A stretch of 64,000 bases of DNA, from positions 1,054,001 through 1,118,000 of the forward strand of contig NZ_AP024276.1 of assembly GCF_021654455.1 (NCBI RefSeq), given 5' to 3'. Shown here in pieces: positions 22,832-56,679 of this stretch. The stretch's first letter is position 1. The number at the start of each line of letters is the position of its first letter. The notes under the pieces are model-generated. The model saw only the letters and a list, made by a program, of their open reading frames with translations. It was not told the origin of the DNA and searched no databases. The translations under genes were made by a program, and so were the position numbers. The stretch comes from Streptococcus parasuis (lineage in GTDB: Bacteria; Bacillota; Bacilli; Lactobacillales; Streptococcaceae).

Positions 22832-24247
22832 GGCTCTATAATTTCTGTAGTGGGTAAAACCACCGTGGAGATTATGGAGCCTTTTTAAGTATATACAAAA
22901 AGTCCCATATGACCTATAATGAAAAGTGCTCAAACTATCATTTTAGAAAGACTCATATGGAACAACTAAATCTTATCACAAATTTTCTCAGAATTAAAGA
23001 CAAAAATATCACTATCACTGATGAATATGATATGGAAACTCACTTAGAACTCCACGGTTACTTGGATTACATGGCTCCTAAATGTCAAGAATGCAAGGGA
23101 CAAATGGCTAAGTACGACTACCAGAAAGCATCAAAAATCCCTTACCTAGAAACTGCTGGTTATCCACTCCTTATCCGCCTTAAAAAGCGTCGTTTCAAGT
23201 GTAAAGAATGTGGGAAAATGGCTGTTGCTGAAACTCCTCTTGTCAAGAAGAACCACCAAATCTCCGTCGCTGTTAGTCAGAAGATTGCTCAATTACTCAT
23301 CGAAAATCAAGCAATGACACATATTGCACACAGGCTATCTATCTCAACATCATCAGTTATGAGAAAGCTCAATGAGTTCAAGTTTGAAACGGATTGGAAT
23401 ACCCTACCTGAGGTGATGAGTTGGGACGAGTATGCCTTCAAGAAGGGGAAAATGAGCTTCATCGCTCAAGATTTCGACTCCCTAAACGTCATCGCCATTC
23501 TCGACGGAAGAACTCAAGCAACCATCCGAAACCACTTTCTACGCTATCCTAGAAAGGTTAGAAATCAGGTCAAAGTGATTACCATGGATATGTTTAGTCC
23601 CTATTATCAACTTGCTAAACAGCTTTTTCCGAATGCAAAAATCGTACTAGACCGCTTTCATATTGTTCAACTCCTTAGCCGTGCTATGAACCGTGTCCGT
23701 ATTCAAATCATGAATCAATTTGATAGAAAATCGCAGGAATACCGAGCCTTGAAACGCTACTGGAAATTGATACAACAAGATAGCCGTAAAATCAATGATA
23801 AACGATTTTATCGCCCTATGTTTCGAATGCATTTGACTAACAAGGAAATCCTGGAAAAACTCTTGTCTTTCTCTGAGGAACTACGACAGCACTATGAACT
23901 CTATCAGCTTCTCTTATTCCATTTCCAAGAGAAGAACTCAGACCATTTCTTTGACCTCGTCGAACAGGAAATAGCCACTGTTAATCCTATTTTCCAGACG
24001 GTATTTAAGACATTGCTAAAGGATAAAGACAAGGTTTTGAATGCCCTAGAATTGCATTATTCCAACGCCAAACTGGAAGCTACTAATAATCTCATCAAAG
24101 TCATTAAGAGAAATGCCTTTGGTTTCAGGAACTTTGAAAACTTTAAAAAACGCATTTTGATTGCTTTGAACATAAAGAAAGAGAGAACGAAGTTCGTCCT
24201 CTCTAGGTGTTAGCTTTTCATCTACCCACTACAGTTGACAAAGAGCC
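22832..24247 (+). mobile_element. Complete ISL3-family insertion sequence, 1416 bp
   Basis: The terminal inverted repeats begin GGCTCTATAATTTCTGTAG at 22832 and, read from the other end at 24247, GGCTCTTTGTCAACTGTAG; both continue into TGGGTA. The element is flanked by perfect 8-bp direct repeats TAAAAAAT (22824-22831 and 24248-24255), the target duplication size known for ISL3. A single intact transposase lies inside. The perfect duplication and full-length gene indicate a recent insertion. Confidence 0.95.
22957..24213 (+). CDS. ISL3-family transposase
   Basis: This DDE transposase moves the surrounding element. The product (418 residues from 22957) has an N-terminal zinc-ribbon with CQECKG and CKECGK, a helix-turn-helix around MTHIAHRLSISTSSVMRKL, and the ISL3 catalytic core. 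The core blocks are SWDEYAFKKG, ITMDMFSPYYQL and VLDRFHIVQLL, with SNAKLEATNNLIKVIKR near the end carrying the Glu. A TATAAT box at 22915-22920 with TATACA 17 bases upstream puts the transcript start after the earlier ATG at 22909, so 22957 (MEQLNLITNF) is preferred. No frameshift is seen; it looks functional. Confidence 0.93.
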   Translation: MEQLNLITNFLRIKDKNITITDEYDMETHLELHGYLDYMAPKCQECKGQMAKYDYQKASKIPYLETAGYPLLIRLKKRRFKCKECGKMAVAETPLVKKNHQISVAVSQKIAQLLIENQAMTHIAHRLSISTSSVMRKLNEFKFETDWNTLPEVMSWDEYAFKKGKMSFIAQDFDSLNVIAILDGRTQATIRNHFLRYPRKVRNQVKVITMDMFSPYYQLAKQLFPNAKIVLDRFHIVQLLSRAMNRVRIQIMNQFDRKSQEYRALKRYWKLIQQDSRKINDKRFYRPMFRMHLTNKEILEKLLSFSEELRQHYELYQLLLFHFQEKNSDHFFDLVEQEIATVNPIFQTVFKTLLKDKDKVLNALELHYSNAKLEATNNLIKVIKRNAFGFRNFENFKKRILIALNIKKERTKFVLSRC

Positions 24248-25762: not shown

Positions 25763-25834
25763 CTGGGGTAGCTGGATTCGAACCAACGCATGAGGGAGTC
25801 AAAGTCCCTTGCCTTACCGCTTGGCGATACCCCA
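25763..25834 (-). tRNA. tRNA-Gln (anticodon TTG)
   Basis: Cloverleaf on the minus strand: acceptor TGGGGTA/TACCCCA with G discriminator, D arm with CCAAGCGGTAAGGC, anticodon loop CTTTGAC (TTG), T arm TTGGTTCGAATCCAG. CCA is not encoded. It is second in a Tyr-Gln tRNA pair. Confidence 0.95.
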
Positions 25835-25843
25835 ATATACACC

Positions 25844-25969
25844 ACTAAGATAACGTTCTGAAATGAACTCGGGCTAAACGCTGTGTAAAAAAGATAAGTT
25901 GCCTAGCAAATCAGGATTTGCTGTCAACTTCCTATTTTTACTGTGCGTTTGACGCCCTTAGTATCTTAG
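25844..25969 (-). repeat. Structured intergenic repeat, copy D (between two tRNA genes)
   Basis: Read on the minus strand it starts TAAGATACTAAGGGCG and shows GCACAGTAAAAATAGGAA, then a 7-bp hairpin (AGCAAAT/ATTTGCT, 25905-25922), then TTATCTTTTTTACACAGC. These blocks match copies A and B near prfA in order and spacing, while the central hairpin sequence is different but still paired. It lies in the transcript that should hold tRNA-Tyr and tRNA-Gln. Confidence 0.75.
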
Positions 25970-25972
25970 ATA

Positions 25973-26053
25973 TGGAGAGAGAGGGATTCGAACCCCCGAA
26001 CCCGAAGGAGCGGATTTACAGTCCGCCGCGTTTAGCCTCTTCGCTATCTCTCC
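25973..26053 (-). tRNA. tRNA-Tyr (anticodon GTA)
   Basis: Minus strand acceptor GGAGAGA/TCTCTCC with A discriminator, anticodon stem GCGGA/TCCGC with loop CTGTAAA (GTA), long variable arm CTCCTTCGGGTTC typical of tyrosine tRNA, T arm GGGGGTTCGAATCCCTC. 81 nt, CCA not encoded. Confidence 0.95.
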
Positions 26054-47162: not shown

Positions 47163-48241
47163 TATTTGTTAAGCTCTTCTAGTTTTTGCGTCTGATCGTA
47201 AAGTACAAGAGCATCTACGACTTCGTCCATCTTACCTGACAAGATGGTATCGAGCTTTTGCAAGGTCAAGCCGATACGATGGTCGGTCACACGGTTTTGT
47301 GGGAAGTTATAAGTACGGATACGCTCTGAACGGTCACCTGTACCGATAGTTGATTTACGCTCAGCATCCTGCTCATCTTGGGCAATCTGTGCAAAGTGAT
47401 CCGCAACACGGGCACGGATAATTTTCATGGCCTTTTCACGGTTTTTCTGCTGGGTCCGTTCTTCCTGCATTTCTACCTTGATGTTGGTTGGCAAGTGAAC
47501 GATACGCACGGCAGTTGCAACCTTGTTGACGTTCTGTCCACCAGCACCAGATGCATGGTAAATATCGACACGAAGATCTTTGGGATCGATGTCATATTCC
47601 ACTTCTTCAACTTCTGGCATGATGAGGACAGTTGCTGTTGAGGTGTGGACACGACCTTGGCTTTCTGTCACAGGGACACGTTGAACACGGTGAGCTCCTG
47701 ATTCATACTTGAGTTTTGAATAAACGGATTGACCAGAGACCATGGCAACCACTTCCTTGATACCGCCGACACCATTATAAGAAGCCTCCATGACTTCAAA
47801 ACGCCAGCCTTGACCTTCTGCATATTTTTGATACATGGTCAAAAGGTCACCAGCAAAGAGGGCAGCTTCATCACCACCTGCGGCACCACGGATTTCCAAG
47901 ATGATATTTTTGTCATCGTTAGGGTCTTTTGGTAAAAGAAGGATTTTGAGCTTTTCTTCGTAAGCCTCTTTATCAGCCTTAGCTTGTTTGAGTTCTTCCT
48001 TAGCCATTTCCTCCAGGTCTGCATCACCAGAAGATTCTTTAATCATCTCTTCTGCATCGACAATGTTTTGAAGTACAGTCTTATATTCGCGGTAGGCTGT
48101 TACTGTATCACGAGTCGCAGCTTCTTCCTTAGACAACTCCATAAAACGCTTGGTATCGCTGACTACATCAGGGTCAGACAACAATTCACCAAGTTCCTCA
48201 TAGCGGTCCTCCACCGCCTGTAATTGATCGTAGATGTTCAT
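47162..48241 (-). CDS. prfA: Peptide chain release factor 1
   Basis: RF1 ends translation at UAA and UAG. The 359-residue protein has the codon-reading tripeptide PVT in [12 protein letters not shown] near residues 184-195 and the GGQ of [13 protein letters not shown] near 235. The start is set at 48241 ([17 protein letters not shown]), as in relatives; the longer frame starts at a TTG. No Shine-Dalgarno is visible: the end of a structured repeat, TTTGTATCTTAATCTT, precedes the ATG directly. It is followed by prmC with one-base overlap. Confidence 0.95.
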
Positions 48242-48245
48242 AAGA

Positions 48246-48360
48246 TTAAGATACAAAGCCCGTTAAGCAAGCACAGTCAAAATAGGAATTTCGACCAAGT
48301 GTTACAAACACTTGGAGAAATTATCTTTTTGACACAGCTTGTAGGGCGTGTTCATTTCCT
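48246..48360 (-). repeat. Structured intergenic repeat, copy A
   Basis: On the plus strand TTAAGATACAAAGCCCG opens the unit; GCACAGTCAAAATAGGAA and TTATCTTTTTGACACAGC flank a 9-bp hairpin CCAAGTGTT/AACACTTGG (48295-48315). GTAGGGCGTGTTCATTTCC closes it. The two halves are also complementary over much of their length, so the whole unit can fold into one long imperfect hairpin. It abuts the prfA start codon. Confidence 0.85.
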
Positions 48361-48474
48361 TTCTGTAATATGTAGGTCATGAAACAGGCACCGTTCGTAG
48401 CCCGTATTCAGTTCCTTTCTAAAAATTTGGAAAGAAGACACTTCTAGTTAACTTGTAGGGCGTGTTCATTTCCA
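48361..48474. repeat. Degenerate repeat segment between copies A and B
   Basis: It contains two further copies of the closing box, GTAGCCCGTATTCAGTTCC (from 48397) and GTAGGGCGTGTTCATTTCC (from 48455), and partial hairpins such as CTAAAAATTTGG. No gene is seen. Confidence 0.6.
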
Positions 48475-48588
48475 TTAAGATACAAAGCCCGTTAAGCAAG
48501 CACAGTCAAAATAGGAATTTTGACCAAGTGTTATAAACACTTGGAGAAATTATCTTTTTGACACAGCTTGTAGGGCGTGTTCAATTCC
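48475..48588 (-). repeat. Structured intergenic repeat, copy B
   Basis: Nearly identical to copy A over about 110 bases: same opening box TTAAGATACAAAGCCCG, hairpin CCAAGTGTT/AACACTTGG (48524-48544) with a one-base loop change, closing box GTAGGGCGTGTTCAATTCC from 48570. It is a direct repeat with copy A at 229-base spacing. Confidence 0.88.
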
Positions 48589-48589
48589 G

Positions 48590-48705
48590 TTAAGATATTA
48601 ACGCTGATAACCGACTCAAAGGAAATTAGGAATTCTGATGTAGAAACGTCGGTTTCTAGGAAGAATAATCTATTTCTACAGAGTCGTAGGCGTATTCAGT
48701 TCTGT
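48590..48705 (-). repeat. Structured intergenic repeat, copy C (diverged)
   Basis: It opens TTAAGATA, keeps TTAGGAATT and AATAATCTATTT on either side of a different 7-bp hairpin TAGAAAC/GTTTCTA (48641-48658), and closes with CGTAGGCGTATTCAGTTC (from 48685). The layout matches A and B while the hairpin sequence differs. A last closing box, GTAGCCGTATTCATT, lies at 48745. Nothing else is seen up to tdk. Confidence 0.72.
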
Positions 48706-50802: not shown

Positions 50803-52212
50803 TTATATATCCCAAGCTTTTTTCAATCTCTCCATACAATCAGGTATATCTTCCAACTCAATTTTACTAAATCCCAAAAATAAATGTTCATGAGGACACT
50901 CTGCTTCTTCTTGCCAAAACTGCATCGTATCATATACTTTAACACCCTCATCAAGTGCACGTTTTATCATTTCATACTGATTGATTTTCGTTGGAAAACT
51001 GACCAAAAAATATTGTCCACTTACATTATGGGAAACCCTGATAGGCACTTGAAAAGTATCAAACCCATTTTGAAACGCCTCATATCTTTTTTTAAAAATA
51101 TGGCTCATTTTTCTAACCAATCGATCATAATCGCCACTACTCAATACATTAGCTAGTGCAATCTGATTAATAAGATTCACAGTACTGTTGTGTAACCTAA
51201 ATCGTTCTAAAAAGCCTTCAGTAAATTGTTTAGGTAGAACAATATAACTCATTCTAAAAGATGGCGATAAAATTTTTGAGAAGGTCCCTAGATAAATAAC
51301 TCGATCAGGATAATCTATTGATTTTAATGCCGGAACAGGTTTCTCATAATAACGTAATTCACTATCATAATCATCTTCAATAACAAACGAATCGTTCTGT
51401 TCAGCAAATTCTAACAGCTTTTGACGTCTAGAAATTGGCATAATCATCCCCAATGGAAATTGATGCGATGGAGTCGTATAAATCATATCAATATTAACTG
51501 CATTAGAAAGTTTACTTATGTCTAATCCTTTTACGTCGACCTTTCCCGTACTAATATTACAAGAATTCTTTATAAAAATCTCTCTTGCTTTTGGATAACT
51601 TGGCTCCTCCATCAGTACATTTTTATTTTTACCTAAAAACTGACATAAATAATCTAAAGATTGTTGTAAGCCACTTGTGATAATAACCTGTCTAGGGTGA
51701 CAAACAACACCTCTTATTCGCTCTAAATAACGACAAATTTCTTTTCTGAGGACTACATCACCTTGAAAAGGTTGTAAACTTGACAATCTTTCTGCTAATT
51801 CAAGTTGTTCAAGTGCAGTTATATAGTGCTTCTTCCATACTTTTTTTGGAAAAAGATTACTTGTATGGCTACTGTTAGTCAAGTCATAAACAATATTCTC
51901 TTGTCTCAATATTTCCTCATCCATGTAGTTTTCATCAAATGGATTTTTCTCTCTGCTAGAACATAGCACCTTCGGAAGTCTTAAAACATAAAATCCCGCA
52001 TTTTTTCTACTTTCAATATATCCTTCAAGCGTTAATTGAAGATAGGCTCTATCAACAGTATTCCTACTGACATCTAGCATTTTAGCTAATGTTCTTGTTC
52101 CTAAGATTCTTTCATTTGGCGATAGGTAACCATTTATAATATCTAACTTTATCTGACTATAAATTTGCTCATATAATGGACGATGCTCCTTGCCTTTTTT
52201 AAGGTTTATCAT
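50803..52212 (-). CDS. MocR/GntR-family regulator with aminotransferase domain (PdxR-like)
   Basis: This is a PLP-sensing transcription factor. The N-terminal 70 residues form a GntR winged helix (PLYEQIYSQIKLDIINGYL; ILGTRTLAKMLDVSRNTVDR). A fold-type I aminotransferase domain follows, with DLTNSSHTSNLFP, a PLP-region FVIEDDYDSELRYYE near residue 285 and the Lys in YLGTFSKILSPSFRMSY near 313. The start at 52212 has GGAGGAG upstream. It is divergent from a truncated cysteine-synthase-like gene and an EamA exporter, which are probably its targets. Codon use is AT-richer than the flanking housekeeping genes, in line with transfer. PdxR homologues control vitamin B6 genes, but none is present here. 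Confidence 0.87.
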   Translation of the reverse strand: MINLKKGKEHRPLYEQIYSQIKLDIINGYLSPNERILGTRTLAKMLDVSRNTVDRAYLQLTLEGYIESRKNAGFYVLRLPKVLCSSREKNPFDENYMDEEILRQENIVYDLTNSSHTSNLFPKKVWKKHYITALEQLELAERLSSLQPFQGDVVLRKEICRYLERIRGVVCHPRQVIITSGLQQSLDYLCQFLGKNKNVLMEEPSYPKAREIFIKNSCNISTGKVDVKGLDISKLSNAVNIDMIYTTPSHQFPLGMIMPISRRQKLLEFAEQNDSFVIEDDYDSELRYYEKPVPALKSIDYPDRVIYLGTFSKILSPSFRMSYIVLPKQFTEGFLERFRLHNSTVNLINQIALANVLSSGDYDRLVRKMSHIFKKRYEAFQNGFDTFQVPIRVSHNVSGQYFLVSFPTKINQYEMIKRALDEGVKVYDTMQFWQEEAECPHEHLFLGFSKIELEDIPDCMERLKKAWDI

Positions 52213-52226
52213 AACTCCTCCCTCCA

Positions 52227-52276
52227 AAGTGGCACCTAAAAATTTTCTATTACTGGTACTTTTTATTATACCACTT
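52227..52276. promoter_or_regulatory. Divergent control region with MocR-type repeats
   Basis: Between the divergent regulator and cysK-like gene, AAGTGG (52227-52232) and CCACTT (52271-52276) form an inverted pair, and GGCACC and GGTACT resemble further half-sites. A minus-strand TATAAT lies within CCACTT-adjacent sequence (52264-52271). The arrangement fits autoregulation by the MocR protein. Confidence 0.45.
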
Positions 52277-52312
52277 ATCTATTAAAATTTTAAAAAAGGA
52301 GGTTAAATAACA

Positions 52313-52792
52313 ATGTCTATTCTTAAAGATATGGGAAATACACCTTTGGTAAAGTTAAAAAATCCATTTGGTGATAATTTTGCTCAGGTTTATTTGAAAA
52401 TGGAAGAATTCAATCCAGGTGGTAGTATAAAATCTCGTGTTGCATTGCAAATGATAGAAGATGCAGAAACATCCGGTGTTTTGAAATCTGGAGACACTCT
52501 GATAGAGCCAACTGGGGGCAATACAGGCATTGGACTAGCTGTGGCCAGTTCATTAAAAGGTTATCAATTAGTTTTAACAACCCCAGATCACTTTAGTGCT
52601 GAAAAAATTGAAGTTTTAAAAAAATATGGTGCCAAAGTTGTTCTTGCTGATCATAGATTAGGCAATGATTGTCATATTCAGAAAGCTAAAGAATTGTTAA
52701 AAGATAATCCCGATTGGATTTGTTTAAACCAATTTGAAAATCCTTCAAATCCTAAAACACATTATCTATACAGGATATCAAGTCATAGATAA
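52313..52792 (+). pseudogene. Truncated cysteine synthase-like PLP enzyme
   Basis: The 159 codons cover only the N-terminal half of a roughly 300-residue fold-type II enzyme. They include MGNTPLVKL, the cofactor Lys in NPGGSIKSRVA near residue 40, the substrate loop EPTGGNTGIGLA near 67-78, and NQFENPSNPKTHY near 140. Translation then leaves the family pattern and stops (RISSHR). The downstream domain with the PLP-phosphate glycine loop is missing. AAAGGAGG precedes the ATG. It is divergent from the MocR regulator. A deletion or fusion seems to have removed the 3' half. Confidence 0.8.
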
Positions 52793-54846: not shown

Positions 54847-56679
54847 TTATTTCTTATCGTCTTCATCCATGCTGAGAACGCTGAGGAAGGCTTCTTGAGG
54901 TACTTCGACAGATCCGATGGCCTTCATCCGTTTTTTACCAGCTTTTTGTTTTTCTAGGAGTTTGCGTTTACGGGAAACGTCACCACCATAACACTTGGCC
55001 AAAACGTTCTTCCGAAGAGCCTTGATGTCGCTACGGGCAACGATTTTTTGACCGATAGCAGCTTGGATTGGCACTTCAAACTGTTGACGCGGAATGATTT
55101 TCTTGAGTTTGTCCACGATGATTTTCCCACGTTCGTAAGCAAATTCCTTGTGGACGATAAAGCTGAGGGCATCTACCTTGTCGCCGTTCAAGAGAATATC
55201 CATTTTCACTAACTTAGATGAACGGTACTCAGAAATTTCATAGTCAAAGCTAGCATATCCACGAGTAGATGACTTGAGTTTATCAAAGAAATCAAAGACA
55301 ATCTCCGCAAGTGGAATTTGGTAGATAACATTGACACGGTTATCATCTATATAATCCATGGTCACAAAGTCACCACGTTTGCGTTGGGCCAATTCCATCA
55401 CCGCACCGACGTATTCCTGTGGAACCATGATTTGTGCCTTAACGTAAGGCTCTTCGATAGTGGCGATCTTGGTTGGGTCTGGGAATTCGGATGGGTTGGC
55501 TACATCAATCATATCACCATCCGTCATGTTGACATGGTAAACCACCGACGGTGCAGTCATGATGAGGTCAATGTTAAATTCACGCTCTATCCGTTCTTGA
55601 ATAACATCCATGTGCAAGAGACCTAAGAAGCCACAACGGAAACCAAAGCCGAGGGCCTGCGATGTTTCAGGTTCGAACTGCAAACTGGCATCGTTGAGCT
55701 GGAGCTTTTCCAAGGCTTCACGGAGGTCATTGTACTTGTTGGAGTCAATTGGATAGATCCCAGCGAATACCATTGGATTCATCTGCTTGTAGCCTGCTAG
55801 TGGTTCGCTAGCAGGATTTTCCGCTAAGGTCACCGTATCACCGACACGGGTATCTGCCACGGTCTTGATAGAAGCTGCGATATAACCAACATCTCCAACT
55901 GCTAGAAAATCACGGCCAATAGCTTTTGGTGTAAAAATTCCAACTTCCGTAACATCGAAGGTCTTGCCATTGCTCATCATCTGGATGGTATCACCAGGCT
56001 TCACAACCCCATTGACAATACGGACTTGGAGGATGACCCCACGATAGGGATCATAGACAGAGTCAAAAATTAAAGCCTGCAATGGAGCTTCAACATCACC
56101 TGTTGGAGCGGGAACTTTCTCAACGATTTGTTCAAGAATCTCTTCAATACCAATTCCTGATTTAGCTGAAGCGGGAACCGCTTCCGAAGCGTCCAAACCA
56201 ATGACATCTTCAATTTCTTGACGAACACGCTCAGGATCTGCAGCTGGTAGATCAATCTTATTAATGACTGGCAAGATTTCAAGATCATTATCCAGAGCCA
56301 AATAAACATTTGCAAGTGTTTGTGCTTCAATACCTTGGGCTGCATCAACTACCAGAATTGCTCCTTCACAGGCAGCAAGCGAACGAGAAACTTCATAGGT
56401 AAAATCCACGTGTCCTGGAGTGTCTATCAAATGGAAGATATAGGTTTCTCCATCTTTGGCAGTATAGTTAAGCTCGATAGCATTTAGCTTAATGGTTATG
56501 CCGCGTTCACGCTCCAAATCCATGCTATCTAACAATTGAGCCTGCATTTCACGACTAGAAACTGTTTCTGTCTTTTCGAGTATGCGGTCAGCCAAGGTTG
56601 ATTTCCCATGGTCAATGTGGGCAATAATGGAGAAATTACGGATTTTCTCCTGTCGTTCTTTTAATTCTTCTAAATTCAT
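54847..56679 (-). CDS. lepA: Elongation factor 4 (LepA)
   Basis: LepA is a ribosome-bound GTPase that affects translocation and ribosome assembly. In the 610-residue protein the G motifs are [13 protein letters not shown] near residues 20-32, DTPGHVDF near 86-93 and NKIDLPA near 140. EF-G-like domains and the LepA-specific C-terminal domain follow, ending [20 protein letters not shown]. Length is standard and the start is typical. The 3' end lies 23 bases from the IS3 remnant, so the island joins directly at the end of this gene. No terminator is seen after it. Confidence 0.96.

Follow-up and report, generated by a model that had tools for sequence, protein, structure and literature searches.

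Hairpin elements in the prfA region

The window, i.e. the whole 64,000-nucleotide stretch of DNA that was analysed, corresponds to positions 1054001-1118000 of the single-contig 2.2-Mb genome of Streptococcus parasuis. It includes the release factor 1 gene prfA on the minus strand (47165..48241; NCBIfam prfA equivalog, E 3e-156), with its ATG start codon at 48239-48241. The gap between this start codon and the Shine-Dalgarno (SD) sequence is filled by element A (48246..48357, minus strand, given on the gene-sense strand), which scores 121.0 bits (E 7.6e-27) with the covariance model R1 described below. On the far side of element A from prfA the sequence reads AGAAAGGA (48357..48364, minus strand), the sole SD-like motif near the gene; the SD and the ATG are 115 nt apart, and no SD 6-mer was found within 20 nt of the ATG. 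A second AGAAAGGA motif (48413..48420, minus strand) adjoins a relic element end, in a stretch with relic ends of families D3 and D4, and is perhaps a leftover of an earlier insertion.

Two further elements lie upstream on the same strand. Element B (48475..48586; R1 121.6 bits) is a near-copy of A, sharing 97% identity with it, and in tandem with it is the diverged element C (48590..48701; R1 69.8 bits, E 3.6e-14). Short relic ends of more elements, from families D3-D5, are scattered over the A-C region. Element D, given on the gene-sense strand, is on the plus strand (25861..25969; R1 90.6 bits) between two tRNA genes (25763-25834 and 25973-26053); on the model strand the covariance-model limits are the same, 25861-25969 on the minus strand, and A, B and C are opposite to it. 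On the model strand all four fold more stably than their dinucleotide shuffles (z -7.4, -6.9, -3.1 and -6.1 for A, B, C and D, respectively), with 2 of 200 shuffles folding as well as element C, and all are members of one hairpin family.

An earlier note on this DNA, made from the sequence alone, had described the four copies as a structured repeat. Elements A and B were found where it had placed them and as alike as reported, and the central hairpins do differ between classes as claimed. Elements C and D are real, but they are less alike than the note had it, and D is on the opposite strand. The boxes said to be common to all four are not, as C has AAATTAGGAA and AATAATCTATTTC in their place. 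The fixed placement between the SD and the start codon, which is the main subject here, was missed in that note.

A search of Rfam with A-D returned no family at its gathering score, and with a relaxed threshold A-C returned snoZ194 alone (E 0.35 and 0.48), far under its gathering score. Elsewhere in the window, the known Streptococcus RNA Srn266 (RF02822) has a match at 22832-22942 on the minus strand (117 bits).

Distribution of the family

BLAST searches with A and D recovered diverged copies, and 13 copies from the S. parasuis genome were aligned (alignment A2) and used to build R1. In the same genome R1 matched 42 places at E<=1, including 36 at E<=2e-10, or about 40 copies. As a model made from 13 copies found these 42 places with 150 of the 1147 first-look candidates scored, the family is far above chance. 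The earlier note had proposed a covariance-model search of streptococcal genomes, and R1 matched 193 of 197 Streptococcus genomes; because 19 candidates were scored in each genome, the copy numbers from this survey are lower bounds. In a sample across the Lactobacillales, 64 of 246 genomes and 11 of 64 genera had matches, those outside Streptococcus being weaker relatives (best E about 1e-9).

When named genomes were scanned for the core pattern, at least 117 stretches matched, and among the 80 listed were many Streptococcus species, several Enterococcus species and Lactococcus laudensis, together with some chance matches. When folded, seven Enterococcus and two Lactococcus loci looked like family members; a Vagococcus locus did not, nor did any of the seven that were folded from the nine listed pattern matches outside the Lactobacillales. 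The core pattern is also present in 26 viral stretches, as a pattern match alone, and no match to copy A was found in plasmids.

Anatomy and covariation of the stems

The element is non-coding and about 110 bp in size. Here, the sense strand is the reverse complement of the model strand, so defined because copies run that way relative to neighbouring gene starts. The 5' half of a sense copy consists of AATTGAACnCG, stems P1 and P2, an internal loop, P3 with a run of A, AGATAA, P4 and the apical stem P5. The 3' half returns through P4', TTCCTATTTT, P3', a loop, P2', TTAACG and P1' to nnGTATCTTA. The conserved gene-sense boxes are AAAAAGATAA and TTCCTATTTT. The ends of the element are closed by a further stem, P0, in which GAAC pairs with GTATC with one base bulged.

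In the 13 copies of A2, 92.6% of cells hold a pair, compared with 75.5% in shuffles, and shifting the partner by one column reduces pairing to 52%. Double-sided changes number 76 (25.7 in shuffles) and are found at 18 of 32 pairs (13.4 in shuffles). Since the A2 structure had been drawn from the same sequences, covariation was retested without fitting, using 151 distinct copies, ungapped and anchored solely on the boxes AAAATAGG and TATCTTTT, with positions outside the boxes compared. The anchored set comprises 151 hits, the remainder being without a near-exact anchor or repeating another copy. The expected pairing register stands out. Six interior stem pairs are Watson-Crick in 85-97% of the copies, with mutual information of 0.73-1.41 bits, and three pairs at helix ends or beside the internal loop are weaker (98 to 131 of 151). 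An uninterrupted apical stem of at least 4 bp is present in 134 of the 151 copies and has 71 different sequences. P0 pairs in 155 of the 159 copies with readable ends, where 126.5 would be expected from independent ends, and does so with AC/GT, AT/AT, GC/GC and GT/AC. Among orthologous copies upstream of dnaJ, P4 shows a double-sided change (TG/CA in 13, AG/CT in 7), with one pair broken in 3 of 23. Hence, around the conserved boxes, the sequence of the stems is nearly free provided that the arms pair. The earlier note had maintained that pairing is kept in the central hairpin while bases change and that the outer halves are complementary as well; the outer stems covary too, far above shuffles in the 13 copies. 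The two points on which it had staked its proposal, further copies in related genomes and compensatory changes in the central stem, both came out in its favour.

Recurrence between Shine-Dalgarno and start codon

The surroundings of the element were compared in 220 contexts derived from 226 model hits (41 of 46 in the S. parasuis genome, 78 best-match loci, and 107 of 108 in a further set); five weak or opposite-strand partial hits and one hit cut at a contig end were left out. The contexts include orthologues, and there are 22 different first-six-residue strings among the genes behind the model-found inserts. On the sense strand, 60 of the 220 end no more than 4 nt before an ATG with an open frame, and two of these may be false (one leads into a 53-aa frame at locus L167, the other is at L157). 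On the opposite strand none of the 220 is within 8 nt of an ATG and seven are within 60 nt. The other 160 contexts are away from a start. In a smaller group (13 of 220) the start is 12-18 nt or slightly more downstream, several with a normal SD in between.

An SD 6-mer is found upstream of the element in 57 of the 60 start-adjacent contexts compared with 14 of the 160 others, and within 20 nt of the ATG in none of the 60; the remaining three have no SD under the rule used. These two counts, 57 of 60 and 0 of 60, describe the arrangement known from phage T4, in which a structured insert parts SD and AUG and no other SD lies closer. The upstream 6-mers peak at the edge of the element and about 16-28 nt farther up, beyond a small extra hairpin, and opposite-strand controls gave at most 4 per bin. 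In 55 distinct inserts the distance from SD to AUG is 107-151 nt, and at some genes (at L317, L182 and L191) the order is element, SD, element, ATG. The family thus recurs at streptococcal genes, in one orientation, with the SD (AGAAAGGA) on one side and the start codon on the other.

In the S. parasuis genome, 13 of the 41 copies examined end 1-4 nt before an ATG on the sense strand. The genes are prfA, uvrA, sufB, proS, carA, carB, dnaJ, mutM, alaS and purB, and those for an ABC transporter, dihydrolipoyl dehydrogenase and dihydrolipoamide acetyltransferase. Several of these are commonly essential. In the same genome, three near-identical copies (L071, L072 and L073) precede one shared flanking sequence, presumably a spacer of rRNA operons.

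The prfA and dnaJ loci

Two genes were followed across genomes. For prfA, 30 loci were fetched from a sample of 59 genomes and 28 had readable upstream regions. All 22 element-free regions have AAGGAG 5-13 nt before the ATG, whereas in the six that bear the element the SD is 76-116 nt from it. On the prfA tree the distribution of the element takes two changes to explain, in the clade of the S. parasuis genome and in a genome (G010) grouped with two element-free genomes, and two gains would be the simplest reading.

The dnaJ gene was found in all 118 genomes searched; upstream regions were read for 90, of which 86 had a recognised start. The core of the element is held by 71 of the 86 by rule and by roughly 77 by eye, as one of the 71 (L445) appears to be spurious and, among the remaining 15, seven have an element-like end. 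In 65 of the 71 an SD 7-mer is 106-132 nt from the ATG, and in 1 of 71 there is an SD 6-mer within 20 nt of it (6% of random 50-nt windows contain one). The next 50 nt upstream also contain an SD in 33 of the 71, and these extra SDs may be relics of earlier insertions. At one dnaJ locus (L383) the end of the element alone remains and the SD is nearer. Another dnaJ type (L390) differs by eye from most copies in having a GTG frame that spans the whole element into the dnaJ start.

Mobility, targets and candidate enzymes

The genome G392 belongs to a different family of the Lactobacillales. The left end of a unit about 157 bp in length, in which the hairpin is accompanied by an additional left segment, has 134 matches with at most two mismatches in this genome (L273-L292, L369-L378). 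When tandem copies are excluded there are 27 distinct left flanks, and in 24 of them a terminator-like sequence directly abuts the unit (4.4 in shuffles); terminator-like right flanks, in either direction, number 3 of 24. In Streptococcus, targeting of terminators was considered for copies away from starts and rejected, as 11 of 158 are beside one compared with 13.6 in shuffles, no excess; for copies at starts the count is 7 of 60 (3.7 in shuffles). The 134 left-end matches and the terminator flanks in G392, together with the SD edge in Streptococcus, indicate that the hairpin family moves and that its targets differ by lineage. The suggestion in the earlier note of a mobilised element is in keeping with these matches to one related unit and with the prfA tree, on which the state changes at least twice. 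On contig C1 of another genome, G205, a related element forms tandem arrays with a spacing of about 121 bp (e.g. 52153-52755 and 56168-56646).

Of the features of miniature inverted-repeat elements (MITEs), the pairing of the outer ends is present; there was no consistent target duplication by eye in the flanks read, and no parent element was found. A Y1 transposase (PF01797) and a reverse transcriptase (PF00078) are each present in 7 of 12 genomes searched. Each is in 6 of the 7 genomes with elements and in 1 of the 5 with no R1 match, a loose association in which genome size is a confounder. There are exceptions: the element-rich genome G365 has neither, and G005 has both, its Y1 match containing internal stops. 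Two near-identical copies in the S. parasuis genome (L046 1365-1759, and L047) adjoin reverse transcriptase genes, and that in L046 sits between two group II intron D1D4 matches.

What keeps the arms paired

The earlier note had taken the structure as selected and possibly acting as an RNA module. Compensatory changes support selected structure, but selection acting on the element as RNA is doubtful. In RNA stems selected on one strand, G-U on that strand should outnumber A-C. Among the 906 interior cells of the anchored copies, 837 are Watson-Crick, 18 are G-U and 15 are A-C, so the two mismatches are about equally rare; tRNA stems in the same loci, from a program that reports standard pairs only, have 90 G-U among 1064. 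Pairing is also no better next to genes, with Watson-Crick cells over nine pairs amounting to 320 of 369 in copies at starts and 851 of 990 elsewhere. As there is neither better pairing at starts nor an excess of G-U on the mRNA strand, translation is probably not what keeps the fold. We infer indirectly from the sequences that the pairing is kept by a step at the DNA level, most simply mobility via a single-stranded hairpin. Template switching between the arms (quasipalindrome correction) would yield paired stems without any selection for structure and would account for near-perfect pairing with few wobbles of either kind. However, it should also remove unpaired bulges and internal loops, and the boxes bearing these are among the most constant parts of the element. 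We therefore regard template switching as highly improbable.

Proposed bridged initiation and its rivals

The explanation that we favour, and consider probable, is that mobile hairpins enter the gap between SD and AUG and are tolerated there since the fold closes the gap, initiation being bridged. A mobile hairpin of about 110 bp would insert between the SD and the start codon and its closing stem would draw both ends of the insert together; as the ends are thus united, the ribosome probably bridges the SD to the AUG, binding the one and reaching the other over the hairpin's base. Such a gene would remain translatable though its SD is more than 100 nt off, and the insertion would be tolerated because the hairpin probably folds out of the ribosome's way. 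Pairing of the stems would be maintained at the DNA level through the mobility step, driven by a putative enzyme.

Folding of the inserts gave inconsistent results, and because of this the case for bridging rests on position, orientation, retention of the SD and the covarying closing stem. Folding of the isolated insert gave 11 unpaired bases between SD and AUG in copy A, 10 in uvrA and 9 in both carA and carB. However, the median is 14 in real and 14 in shuffled inserts, so this count cannot discriminate between them, and 7 of 55 folds leave 25 unpaired bases. When copy A is folded with its flanks, the centroid leaves the SD free, whereas in the best structure part of the SD is base-paired to UAUCUU close to the AUG, and it is because of this structure that we put bridging no higher than probable. 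The predicted best fold would hide the SD, and an SD-hiding switch is possible.

Such a switch is central to our second choice, in which the hairpin is a conserved cis-regulatory leader, a translational switch (e.g. a thermosensor at dnaJ) that alternately hides and frees the SD and is maintained at certain genes, more than an insertion that is simply put up with. That fold of copy A speaks for it, as do the presence of the element at dnaJ in roughly 77 of 86 species read and the recurrence of starts of prfA, carB, and genes that we take, from their first residues, to be deoD-like and parC-like. It ranks second because 160 of the 220 contexts are not at a start. The tandem arrays, the copies located between tRNA genes or close to rRNA genes, and a structure kept equally well away from starts also argue against a regulatory role, as do the 134 matches to one unit in G392 with terminators at 24 of the 27 flanks read. 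A regulatory leader is, in our view, unlikely.

Considerably less likely is that the element carries a promoter from which transcription starts at the ATG, giving a leaderless mRNA to which the distant SD is irrelevant. The sense-strand end GTATCTTA does lie 5-8 nt ahead of the ATG, at about the position expected of a -10 box. However, the corresponding -35 position would land in the hypervariable stems, so no fixed -35 is possible, and an internal promoter would let the SD decay, whereas it is kept at 65 of 71 dnaJ loci. Translational coupling, in which ribosomes would load at the SD, translate through the element in a leader frame and reinitiate at the AUG, is the least credible of all. Of 105 inserts, 6 have a leader frame extending to the AUG; in 70 the stretch 3-13 nt past the SD lacks ATG, GTG and TTG, in 29 the frame stops early, and 84 have no stop-free frame across the insert.

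If bridging is correct, the usual requirement for an SD some 5-13 nt from the start would not hold for a set of housekeeping genes in a genus that includes both pathogens and commensals, and gene-finding programs that weigh SD spacing would misjudge the start-adjacent genes. It would also show how folding can neutralise an insertion at a site as sensitive as the initiation region of an essential gene, and the family offers many natural replicates, along with insert-free orthologues, for studying how ribosomes start on structured leaders. In its broadest form, the proposal is of a translational counterpart of an intron: a mobile family in the SD-AUG gap of essential genes, with ribosomes skipping a self-closing hairpin whose pairing is enforced by single-stranded-DNA mobility, and spacing of more than 100 nt at many genes of the genus. 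We would give this combined picture an even chance of being right.

Relationship to known systems

The closest parallel to a structured insert between SD and AUG is in phage T4 genes 25 and 38, where structure restores the spacing from 27 to 11 nt and from 22 to 5 nt, and destabilising it lowers initiation (PMC3014915). The T4 inserts are short, confined to a single locus each and not from a repeat family, whereas the streptococcal inserts are 107-151 nt long, found at many genes and apparently mobile.

The pneumococcal repeats BOX, RUP and SPRITE are likewise short, structured, intergenic, often clustered and near genes. Croucher 2011 (PMC3049150) reports them as almost exclusive to S. pneumoniae, S. 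mitis and S. suis and nearly absent from other streptococci save for related S. suis elements, and the BOX-type families of S. suis have modules of about 50 nt and 115-133 nt. The sequence modules that define BOX-type repeats are boxA, boxB and boxC, or A-F in S. suis. The hairpin family differs in its hypervariable paired stems and in its range. The earlier note had likened the copies to BOX-type elements, a label that is not supported because the reported range of BOX is narrow, whereas matches to this family extend to 193 of 197 Streptococcus genomes; it is by described range that the two are set apart.

Structure is conserved above sequence in REP palindromes with Y1 transposases and in integron attC sites, the latter having conserved bulges on variable stems. 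The streptococcal element resembles both in keeping structure more than sequence, and attC in its bulges on variable stems, but it is larger. The EFAR repeats of Enterococci, also small palindromic repeats of Lactobacillales, reportedly fold into stem-loops and insert at stem-loop sites, which resembles the placement of the G392 unit at terminators, though terminators are not in excess beside Streptococcus copies away from starts. To our knowledge, a position between SD and AUG is not a feature of EFAR. On description rather than sequence, EFAR may be the same family. In the literature covered on EFAR, split ribosome binding sites and streptococcal palindromic repeats, there was no description of placement between SD and start; this is weak evidence of novelty because the coverage extended to few subscription journals.

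At three loci (L030, L012 and L008) the neighbouring intergenic DNA is rich in other hairpin modules with differing stems. Some of these may be the S. suis BOX modules described in Croucher 2011.
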